NCBI GenBank assembly: GCA_035651655.1
Contig: DASRFG010000001.1
Coordinates: 156,001 to 220,000, forward strand
Length of the DNA stretch: 64,000 nucleotides
From: Terriglobales bacterium
Lineage (GTDB): Bacteria; Acidobacteriota; Terriglobia; Terriglobales; Acidobacteriaceae
Direction of reading: 5' to 3'
A model generated the notes under the pieces. The model had not been told where the DNA came from. It saw nothing but the letters and a program-made list of their open reading frames with translations, and searched no databases. Shown one piece after another: positions 57,030-63,413 of the stretch (positions are counted from its first letter, which is position 1; each line of letters begins with the position of its first letter). Position numbers and translations under genes: made by a program.

Positions 57030-57881
57030 ATGGTGAGCAGCACGGCCAGTTTGCAGGTCCCCAAAAAGAGCAGCACTACGCGTCTCGCGGTGCTTGGCTG
57101 CGGGAAGATGGGGACAATTTTGCTCCAGGCATTCGCGGAGCACGGATTATTTTCGAAGGAGGAAACGGTCGCCACGGTGCAGCATATGGCCCGCTGCGAG
57201 GAACTTTCCTCCCAGCTCGGCATCCCGGTGGGCAGCGACAACCGGTTGGCTGTGGGGGGAGCGGAACTGATCCTGATCTGCGTCAAGCCGCAAGCCGTGG
57301 CGCAGGTGCTAGAAGAAGTTTCCGATGCCATCGCTCCCGACGCGCTGGTGATTTCGATCGCCGCCTCGGTGCCGATTTCTTTTTTGCAGCAGCGGCTCCC
57401 GGCTGGCGTAGCTGTGGTTCGTGCCATGCCCAACACTCCGGCGCAGGTGGGCTGCGCCATGACCGCGATGGCTGCGGGCGCCGCCGTCCGTCCGGAGCAA
57501 ATGGAAACCGCCCGGAAGCTTTTCGAAACCGTGGGACGCGTGGTGACGGTTGACGAGAAACACATGGATGCAATCACGGGGCTCTCAGCCAGCGGGCCGG
57601 CGTTTATATTCATCATTCTGGAATCGTTGGCGGAGGCAGGTGTAAAGATCGGGCTTCCGAGAGACCTATCCACTACACTTGCGGCACAGACATTGCTAGG
57701 CTCGGCCAAGCTGGCGCTGGACAGCGGCCTGCATCCCGCTTTGCTCAAAGACGCCGTGACAACTCCCGCCGGGTGCACCATTGACGGCATCATGGAGTTG
57801 GAAGAGGGCAAGCTGCGTGTGACGTTGATCAAAGCGGTGGTCAAGGCTGCGGAACGCGCGAAGGGACTCCAGTTCAGTTAG
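57030..57881 (+). CDS. proC: Pyrroline-5-carboxylate reductase
   Basis: A 283-residue enzyme that makes L-proline from pyrroline-5-carboxylate with NAD(P)H. The dinucleotide motif LAVLGCGKMGTILL sits near the N-terminus, and the C-terminal signature includes AITGLSASGPAFIF and DAVTTPAGCTIDG. The length is standard. An antisense frame of 273 residues lies opposite and is rejected. It is a single gene with GGAG in its leader. Confidence 0.95.
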   Translation: MVSSTASLQVPKKSSTTRLAVLGCGKMGTILLQAFAEHGLFSKEETVATVQHMARCEELSSQLGIPVGSDNRLAVGGAELILICVKPQAVAQVLEEVSDAIAPDALVISIAASVPISFLQQRLPAGVAVVRAMPNTPAQVGCAMTAMAAGAAVRPEQMETARKLFETVGRVVTVDEKHMDAITGLSASGPAFIFIILESLAEAGVKIGLPRDLSTTLAAQTLLGSAKLALDSGLHPALLKDAVTTPAGCTIDGIMELEEGKLRVTLIKAVVKAAERAKGLQFS

Positions 57882-57918: not shown

Positions 57919-59292
57919 TCAGTGGCCCAAAGTAAAGTTTAGCGTGATGCGTGTCGTCGTTTCGAGGGGCTCACCGTTAAGTTCGGAGGGGTTGTAACGC
58001 CAGTACCTCACCGCCTTGATCGCTGCCCGCGCGAGCAACCCGTTGCCGCTGATGGCTCGCACATCTCTGACGCCGCCGTCTTTACCAATCACTGCATCGA
58101 GAACCACGGCCCCCTCCATGTGTTGCGCTCTCGCCATCTGCGGATACTCTGGAAGAACTTTGTGAACCAGAGCTGGTCCTGACACGCCGGTGGAGACTGG
58201 GGGTGGGGGTGGGCCTGTTACCGCCGACATAGGTAATCTGAGAATCTGCTGAACCGTCCTATGAGACTCTCCTGGTACTGGAATACCACCCAAGATTGCC
58301 TGGCTGTTTGGCGGTGAGTCGAAATCCGAAAGGTCCTTCTCGGTAAGGAGAGCACGAGTACCGTGACCGCGGTCTGCGGCAGCGATGATCACCTCAGAAC
58401 TATTGATCGGTTCGTTCTCAGGGGCAAAATTACGCCGCAGCAACTTCGCGGGTCGAGTAACCGAACCTGGCGCTGGCGGTGAGGTGAAAACCACCTGCTC
58501 AACGCTTTCGGGGCTGGCCGGCGCCGCCAGATGCGTGCTCGTGTCTGTTTGCTCGGGCATTGGGGTTGCTGGACTGCTGCGAAGCGTTAGATAAAGTACG
58601 AGCGCAAGGCTGGCGGATACCACGGTCGCGAGCATGACGTTACGAGCCAGGCGGGCGCGCGGTCGGGACAAACTGCCGATCGCTGCCGCGCGCTCGACCG
58701 CTTGGTACGTGTTCAGCGAGTTGTCGCCACTCGAGATTTCCTGGTGTTGGTTCTGAGCTACCAGCGCCGCCAATTCCATCAAGCAGGTCGCATGTGCACG
58801 AGAAAAGGCGTTGGGCCGGCTGGAAAAGACCTCGAGGACGCCGACGACTTTCGATCCTGCCTTGATAGGCACTGCCAATAACGCCCGAATACCCAACTGG
58901 TTGCATGCAGCGGCGTTAGCCCGGGGATCCCGATCAGCATCGTCAGAAAGCACAACTGCGCTTCTGCGAATACACTCTCCGGAAAGTCCCGATTGCGCAT
59001 CGAGCCGCGTTCCCGGCTCGGGTGCAGTTGTGCCGACGGAGGCCCGGCACACAAATTCTCCGTGCGCGGCCAGAGCAATAGCGGCACCGCTGGCCTGCGT
59101 CGCGCGTTGCGCACGTTCTGCCACCTGTTGAAGCAGCTGTGCCTGCGCAGTCCAGCCCGCAAGCTCAGTCATCCGTGCATGCATTATGTGAGCTGGGGTC
59201 TTCCCCACCCCAGCATATTGGTATGGAATCAGACCGACGCTCTCTATCTCACCCTCTCTTGTTCCAACTGGTGCTTGGGCCATCGCCATCAC
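57919..59292 (-). CDS. GAF-domain/TonB fusion protein
   Basis: A 457-residue protein. Residues about 40-185 form a GAF domain (GLSGECIRRSAVVL, LGIRALLAVPI, VVGVLEVFSS), a membrane helix lies at 218-237, then a proline- and serine-rich periplasmic region, and the TonB C-terminal domain at about 372-457 (LVHKVLPEYPQMARA, VRYWRYNPSELNG). The GAF part should be cytoplasmic, so a signal sensed inside could bear on TonB function outside. The N-terminus lacks a signal peptide, which fits an N-in single-pass protein. No ExbB/ExbD genes are near. Confidence 0.85.
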   Translation of the reverse strand: MMAMAQAPVGTREGEIESVGLIPYQYAGVGKTPAHIMHARMTELAGWTAQAQLLQQVAERAQRATQASGAAIALAAHGEFVCRASVGTTAPEPGTRLDAQSGLSGECIRRSAVVLSDDADRDPRANAAACNQLGIRALLAVPIKAGSKVVGVLEVFSSRPNAFSRAHATCLMELAALVAQNQHQEISSGDNSLNTYQAVERAAAIGSLSRPRARLARNVMLATVVSASLALVLYLTLRSSPATPMPEQTDTSTHLAAPASPESVEQVVFTSPPAPGSVTRPAKLLRRNFAPENEPINSSEVIIAAADRGHGTRALLTEKDLSDFDSPPNSQAILGGIPVPGESHRTVQQILRLPMSAVTGPPPPPVSTGVSGPALVHKVLPEYPQMARAQHMEGAVVLDAVIGKDGGVRDVRAISGNGLLARAAIKAVRYWRYNPSELNGEPLETTTRITLNFTLGH

Positions 59293-62611: not shown

Positions 62612-63295
62612 TTACTTTCGGGTGGCCAGTTTCTGCAGCCACTTGTGAAATGGATCGGCGGATGCTTTCGACATGTATAGGAATCGTACTCCCAGTTGAC
62701 CGGGGCCCTTCTTCCACATGACTTCCGCTTTGGTTTCAAGCAGGGCGTTGTCCAGCTCCGGCAGCTTAAACTTAAGGGAGATTGTTCCCTCGATCGCCGC
62801 GTCAGTATCGAGTTTTAGTCCAAGTCCACCCTCGCTCACGTTAACAGCAGTTGCTTTGAAGTCGCGCTCGTTGGCAGTAATTTGCACCGGCAAATCCACC
62901 CGATAGCGAAAGTAACGCCGAAATTCCCGGTTCACGAAGGTGAGCGCGACGTTCAGGTAAGCATCCAGACTCTGACGCGAGATGGGCTTTGTAAGCACGA
63001 AATTTGCACCCTGGGTGATGGCGTTCCCCGCTTTCGTCCGCCCATTCACCATGGCGATGATGGCGGAACGGTTGTTGGAGTGGCCGCTCCGAATGCGATG
63101 GATCAGCTCCGCTGCCTTGGGCACGTCGTCGCAATCAATAAAAAGCCCGTCAAAGTGGTGACGCTCGAGGAGATCAATGGCGCTGGGTGAATCGGTGCAC
63201 TGGTACACCTCTACTTTGCCCTCCTCGAGGGCCGGCCGAATCGTGCTTAAAATCTGGGTGTCCCGCGTTAGCAGCAGGCATTGCAAGCCATTCAT
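62612..63295 (-). CDS. Pseudo-receiver plus PilZ-domain protein
   Basis: A 227-residue protein. The first 115 residues resemble a response-regulator receiver with D54 in LFIDCDD and K103 in VLTKP, but the usual acidic pair is T10-R11 and the conserved Thr/Ser position is V83, so phosphorylation is doubtful. The second half (125-225) is a PilZ domain with RRYFR (R126, R130) and NVSEGG (N152, S154, G157), the c-di-GMP-binding motifs. It therefore probably binds c-di-GMP. No cyclase gene is near. The ATG at 63295 is chosen over a GTG two codons upstream. Confidence 0.85.
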   Translation of the reverse strand: MNGLQCLLLTRDTQILSTIRPALEEGKVEVYQCTDSPSAIDLLERHHFDGLFIDCDDVPKAAELIHRIRSGHSNNRSAIIAMVNGRTKAGNAITQGANFVLTKPISRQSLDAYLNVALTFVNREFRRYFRYRVDLPVQITANERDFKATAVNVSEGGLGLKLDTDAAIEGTISLKFKLPELDNALLETKAEVMWKKGPGQLGVRFLYMSKASADPFHKWLQKLATRK

Positions 63296-63413
63296 ACCCA
63301 CCAGCCAAAATGCACAGTGAAAATCCTATGCTAAGCCAACCGGCGCGGGGAGGAGTAATGACTGTCGTAATCAGGTGATCCCAACTCCCAAGACCATCTC
63401 CAGGCAAAGGACT

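Follow-up and report, generated by a model that had tools for sequence, protein, structure and literature searches.

The protein encoded at 57919..59292 of the 64,000-nucleotide stretch analysed here (the window), which comes from an acidobacterium of soil, joins a GAF domain, one membrane helix and a TonB_C domain in a single chain, and the name 'TonB' probably mis-describes it. With a confidence that we put about midway, we read it as an unpowered trans-envelope signalling tether, GAF-headed and passing the inner membrane once. In this scheme, where orientation, direction of signalling, docking partner, absence of powering and GAF ligand are what we infer, the cytoplasmic GAF domain with its conserved cysteines would sense a small ligand or the redox state. 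The state of the GAF domain would then pass via the one membrane helix and the flexible linker, and the signal would set the position or the binding of the periplasmic TonB_C domain. The latter would dock, with no powering by ExbB-ExbD, on a partner in the periplasm or the outer membrane; for the largest clade this partner is probably part of a polysaccharide export system.

Architecture, topology and spread

The features of the gene and its protein are as follows.

57919..59292, minus strand: whole open reading frame, 457 codons counted from GTG
58753..59142, minus strand: GAF domain, residues 51-180 (Pfam GAF_2, 5.2e-17; AlphaFold2 pLDDT 94-98; VIA-align Z up to 18.8)
58903..59049, minus strand: conserved cysteine positions, C82 at 59047-59049, C107 at 58972-58974, S116 at 58945-58947 and C130 at 58903-58905
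58579..58659, minus strand: single transmembrane helix, residues about 212-238 (hydrophobicity and AlphaFold2), with no S/T-x3-H/Q motif
58153..58578, minus strand: linker, residues 239-380, presumably periplasmic, of low model confidence
57928..58152, minus strand: TonB_C domain, residues 381-455 (Pfam, 1.3e-17; NCBIfam TIGR01352)

The original prediction of a GAF domain, a single helix and a TonB_C domain in one protein is confirmed in all its parts by Pfam and NCBIfam profiles, hydrophobicity and an AlphaFold2 model. Both domains are significant in HMM searches (5.2e-17 and 1.3e-17, respectively), and all Pfam matches, which include a second one for the GAF region (GAF, 1.3e-14), exceed their curated cut-offs. 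TonB_C reaches 64.5 bits against a Pfam cut-off of 24.6, and the NCBIfam model tonB_Cterm (TIGR01352) 42.9 bits against 27.1. There is one membrane helix, the best 19-residue hydrophobic stretch being 215-233. In the AlphaFold2 model, based on a 32-row alignment, the GAF and TonB_C blocks are mostly at pLDDT 94-98, the helix spans residues 211-237 and the linker has low confidence. VIA-align matches the GAF module to solved GAF domains with Z up to 18.8; these matches of the full model cover the GAF domain only, TonB_C being supported by sequence and model, and a profile built from 10 fusions matches solved TonB chains. The likelier start of the gene is the ATG at 59283, with AGAGG 8 bases upstream and a methionine that is invariant in a 10-row alignment.

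Like TonB of the E. coli type, the window protein has a C-terminal TonB_C domain, one helix and a long linker, but it differs from it by a large cytoplasmic head, the lack of a Ser-x3-His motif in the helix and the lack of an ExbD neighbour. The helix is arginine-rich on its N-terminal side (RPRARLAR) and not on its C-terminal side, as judged by eye, which fits a GAF domain inside the cell. The cytoplasmic location that had been proposed for this domain is thus in keeping with the charges of the window helix but not settled by those of its relatives: a simple charge count over 49 fusions is ambiguous, the N-side equalling or exceeding the C-side in 21/49, so that the orientation of the family rests mainly on the domain identities.

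The build is not an oddity. It recurs in many species, and we gathered 49 distinct GAF-TM-TonB_C proteins, apparently all from Acidobacteriota. These derive from 50 fusion rows after removal of L076, a truncated copy of L117, which remains in the first set of 46 GAF domains and in the 50-row ExbD count given below. Fusions are present in at least 10 of 61 genomes (that of the window and 60 relatives, architectures checked) and in at least 11 of 299 genomes of the class, in both cases all within the window's family; both counts are lower bounds, and in the 299-genome survey five candidates were scored per genome. A contig scan with a six-row alignment yielded 43 loci, two of them partial matches elsewhere and 41 acidobacterial, from Acidobacteriaceae, Acidobacteria, Candidatus Sulfotelmatobacter and Terriglobia MAGs. 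As the protein of locus L121 is 100% identical to one in genome G006, the window's family is tied to the contig-scan loci. Among the matches listed, no open-licence PMC paper concerns GAF-TonB_C proteins by its title or the start of its abstract.

Cysteines of the GAF subfamily and other heads on the same plan

Seven members of this GAF subfamily are found in the window's genome at 166 bits or more, the next GAF match scoring 73. The GAF domain of a relative, modelled alone, has a mean pLDDT of 96.1, and in Foldseek that model best matches a free methionine sulfoxide reductase of type II, together with the GAF domain of an HD-GYP protein. Among 81 subfamily domains above 100 bits four cysteines are conserved, C82 in 79, C107 in 74, C116 in 67 and C130 in 50, with all four present in 42. 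The window domain has three of the four, with a serine at position 116, where cysteine is found in 45/46 GAF domains of the first set and the window copy is the exception. Domains without C116 tend to lack C130 as well, the latter being present in 49/67 domains with C116 and in 1/14 without it (counts that ignore kinship); the single domain that keeps C130 without C116 is that of the window protein. This pattern, read from sequence, suggests that some members of the subfamily have a function involving redox or a metal.

Two known types of cysteine-bearing GAF domain were considered and rejected. Free methionine-R-sulfoxide reductase (YebR; type II, Ta0848) resembles the subfamily in its GAF fold and its conserved cysteines, which in YebR have a catalytic role. 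In a profile alignment to YebR the positions do not coincide: no conserved cysteine of the subfamily falls on one of YebR, C130 lying one residue from Cys 101 of the probe. An AirS-like [2Fe-2S] site is at odds with the spacing, which is C-X24-C-X8-C-X13-C here and Cys-X7-Cys-X-Cys-X17-Cys in AirS according to PMC4601167.

TonB_C, with 19 matches in the window's genome, is joined there to further heads. These are PilZ (PilZ-TM-TonB_C in L050), AAA_22 (L184:6070-8163, plus strand, with a weak helix of best score 1.59 against a threshold of 1.6) and a protein kinase domain (L187:5096-6499, minus strand, one helix at 280-298), the marginal TonB_C match of the last lying just below the Pfam and just above the NCBIfam cut-off. 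An AAA head followed by a membrane span and TonB_C is encoded in genome G029 (L112:3986-6424, minus strand), PilZ-GAF-TM-TonB_C in other genomes (L117, L078 and L102) and TIR-TM-TonB_C in genome G334 (L110:337-1830, minus strand, helix at 322); in L114 a receiver-like head, under the Pfam cut-off, precedes TM-TonB_C. The heads of L184 and L112, AAA and not GAF, resemble the XrtA/PEP-CTERM-associated ATPase (TIGR03015, 225.6 and 229 bits, under the cut-off of 324.5), relatives of which are here joined to TonB_C. Since GAF, PilZ, AAA and marginally kinase heads occur in one genome, TonB_C appears to be a periplasmic tail that can be exchanged. That ordinary TonB proteins have no cytoplasmic domain, as had been stated at the outset, is true in general according to PMC8262864, but here TonB_C proteins with a head are common.

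The GAF subfamily, for its part, is also found ahead of a helix and Sel1 repeats. We mapped the TonB label on a tree of 45 GAF domains, which is built on 154 columns and weak in many of its branches. The label requires 6 changes, of which starred branches force two or more, whereas shuffled labels need 14.9 on average and 0/500 shuffles are as low as 6. The label is thus strongly clustered, and tail-swapping on this GAF domain appears real but limited. We also observed similar gene clusters at L050:4746-9788 in the window's genome and at L057:181-5155 in genome G004. They comprise a GAF-TM protein with a weak Sel1 match, a protein with GAF, a zinc-ribbon-like stretch and a membrane span, a protein of about 100 amino acids (in the L050 cluster with no Pfam match) and PilZ-TM-TonB_C.

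Polysaccharide genes beside the fusions

A gene of the UDP-glucose/GDP-mannose dehydrogenase family (polysaccharide precursors) is found in 25/49 fusion loci, always upstream and on the opposite strand. A gene for polysaccharide export is present in 7/49, always downstream and on the same strand. Where the flanks of a fusion locus measure 3 kb or more on each side, the dehydrogenase occurs in 19/37, an epimerase in 18/37 and the export gene in 5/37, compared to 1/20, 1/20 and 0/20 in comparison stretches hand-picked from seven of the genomes. Around the AAA-TM-TonB_C gene of L112 there are genes that resemble those for export, dehydrogenase and UpxY-like proteins in the fusion loci.

Genes of Wzz, UpxY/NusG and Fis type were identified in L054, and relatives of them are present in 5/37, 7/37 and 6/37 of the well-flanked fusion loci, respectively. 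The latter two are regulator genes and lend themselves to signalling in the inward direction, in which TonB_C would sense the state of the envelope or exporter and the GAF domain would relay it to the cell interior, either by dimerising or through a regulator that it binds. GAF domains often act as relay and dimerisation modules, and relatives within the subfamily carry other parts past the helix, such as the Sel1 repeats. The protein, however, has no cytoplasmic output domain, and AAA and kinase heads in proteins of this plan speak rather for active parts on the inside. We consider inward signalling unlikely.

Helix motif, ExbD and the position of the window copy

In E. coli TonB the SHLS motif touches ExbB through its serine and its histidine, the latter being essential, according to PMC12215075. 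The window helix has no ExbB-contact motif of this Ser-x3-His type. A relaxed motif, [ST]x3[HQEN], is present in the helix of 2/49 fusions compared to 30/38 short TonB_C proteins; in 5/49 and 34/38, respectively, the core of the helix holds at least one polar or charged residue. With the stricter pattern [ST]x3[HQ] there are two hits among the 50 fusion rows; that of L023 immediately precedes the helix, and that of L101 is at its far end. An ExbD gene lies at most 2.5 kb away from 0/50 fusion rows, 0/10 other headed TonB_C proteins (L184 and L187 standing outside these 10) and 20/44 short TonB_C proteins; the larger total of short proteins arises as the ExbD count took in more loci, and the flanks are mostly 1.5 kb at short-TonB loci, while for 37/49 fusions they reach 3 kb or more on each side. 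The motor gene that this search covered was ExbD. The motif is missing in 12/44 short TonB_C proteins, three of which adjoin ExbD, and is thus a good yet imperfect marker; moreover, the loci are related by descent, so that the contrasts between groups of loci, p-values included, overstate independent support. Short acidobacterial TonB proteins with Ser-x3-Gln in place of Ser-x3-His in the helix and a position beside ExbD were observed in L004, L031, L034, L035, L037, L039 and L040.

A receptor-type barrel gene adjoins two related fusions, L103 and L104. With 2/37 well-flanked fusion loci and 1/20 comparison loci, such genes are not enriched at the fusions. The link to outer-membrane transport that had been suggested is consequently weak, given these receptor counts, the lack of ExbD beside any fusion and a motif that is mostly missing. 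The protein could in principle be a dedicated TonB powered by ExbB-ExbD, in which the GAF domain gates which outer-membrane receptor is energised, or when. Its TonB_C domain is strong and TonB-like, two fusions have the receptor-type neighbour, and the window's genome contains 3 ExbD matches, none of them beside fusions; true TonB genes need not adjoin ExbD. Weighed against the near-absence of the relaxed motif and of polar or charged residues from the helix core, the lack of an ExbD neighbour in every fusion locus read and the receptor-type genes at comparison loci, a powered TonB seems to us distinctly improbable. With the powering motif missing, the protein more likely relays a signal from the cell interior to the envelope, as in the tether that we favour, than drives nutrient uptake.

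The closest precedent in print is GltG (PglI) of the Myxococcus xanthus gliding machinery (FHA-TM-TonB), for which PMC3169522 describes an FHA domain in the cytosol, followed by a membrane span and a C-terminal TonB domain (PF03544), as well as an interaction with the motor protein AglR in a two-hybrid assay. As described there, GltG shares with the fusions the combination of a cytosolic signalling domain, a membrane span and a TonB tail, and it serves a motility machine, not nutrient transport. It differs from them in having an FHA head instead of GAF and in contacting AglR, whereas no ExbD (the sole motor gene searched) lies beside the fusions. Pfam matches of the window protein up to E 1 include no FHA head. 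The head-TM-TonB plan being already known from GltG, the GAF version is a variant on it. SjdR of Anabaena, once named TonB1, has a role in septum structure according to PMC8262864.

More tentatively, it is possible that Acidobacteriota possess a range of modular trans-envelope signalling proteins in which various cytoplasmic heads (Cys-rich GAF, PilZ, PilZ-GAF, AAA ATPase, kinase, TIR and receiver) would share TonB_C, freed from ExbBD powering, as a general docking module in the periplasm. The GAF version would then sense the redox state or a metal and control polysaccharide export straight across the membrane, with no transcriptional step. The annotation 'TonB family protein' is usually taken to mean nutrient uptake, and if TonB_C is a signal-controlled docking module many such acidobacterial genes are misread. 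Second messengers, nucleotides or the redox state inside the cell would in that case have a post-translational route to the envelope, and in particular to the exopolysaccharide export of bacteria that abound in soil.

The window gene itself has no polysaccharide gene beside it, dehydrogenase included; the closest relative of the dehydrogenase in the window's genome, 70% identical, is on another contig. Its neighbour is the following gene.

57030..57881, plus strand: proC-like gene (named by eye), in tail-to-tail orientation to the fusion gene, 44 bases away by ORF ends

In 10 other fusion loci proC likewise lies downstream on the opposite strand, at a distance of 16 to 4255 bases. The tail-to-tail arrangement is thus found in 11/49 fusions, the window included, compared to 0/20 comparison loci, and in 5 of the 11 the dehydrogenase is present as well. 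Based on the shared proC neighbour and the dehydrogenase relative on another contig, the window gene probably descends from the same locus as its relatives and has been separated from the polysaccharide genes. That the window copy has lost its role and is decaying or merely structural is very improbable, as the frame is intact, both domains score strongly and the place beside proC is kept, although its GAF domain lacks the cysteine kept by 45/46 domains of the first set and 67/81 of the larger one and the gene stands apart from its relatives' polysaccharide genes.

The gene at 62612-63301 of the window (minus strand) was rejected as a conserved neighbour. Similar genes lie upstream on the same strand in 12/49 fusion loci, but a protein of one such locus, L125, matches nine other places in the window's genome better. 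The gene at 62612-63301 encodes a PilZ domain (G000:C1:218660-218920) and, as judged by eye, a receiver-like N-terminal part, and the same genome contains 32 PilZ matches.
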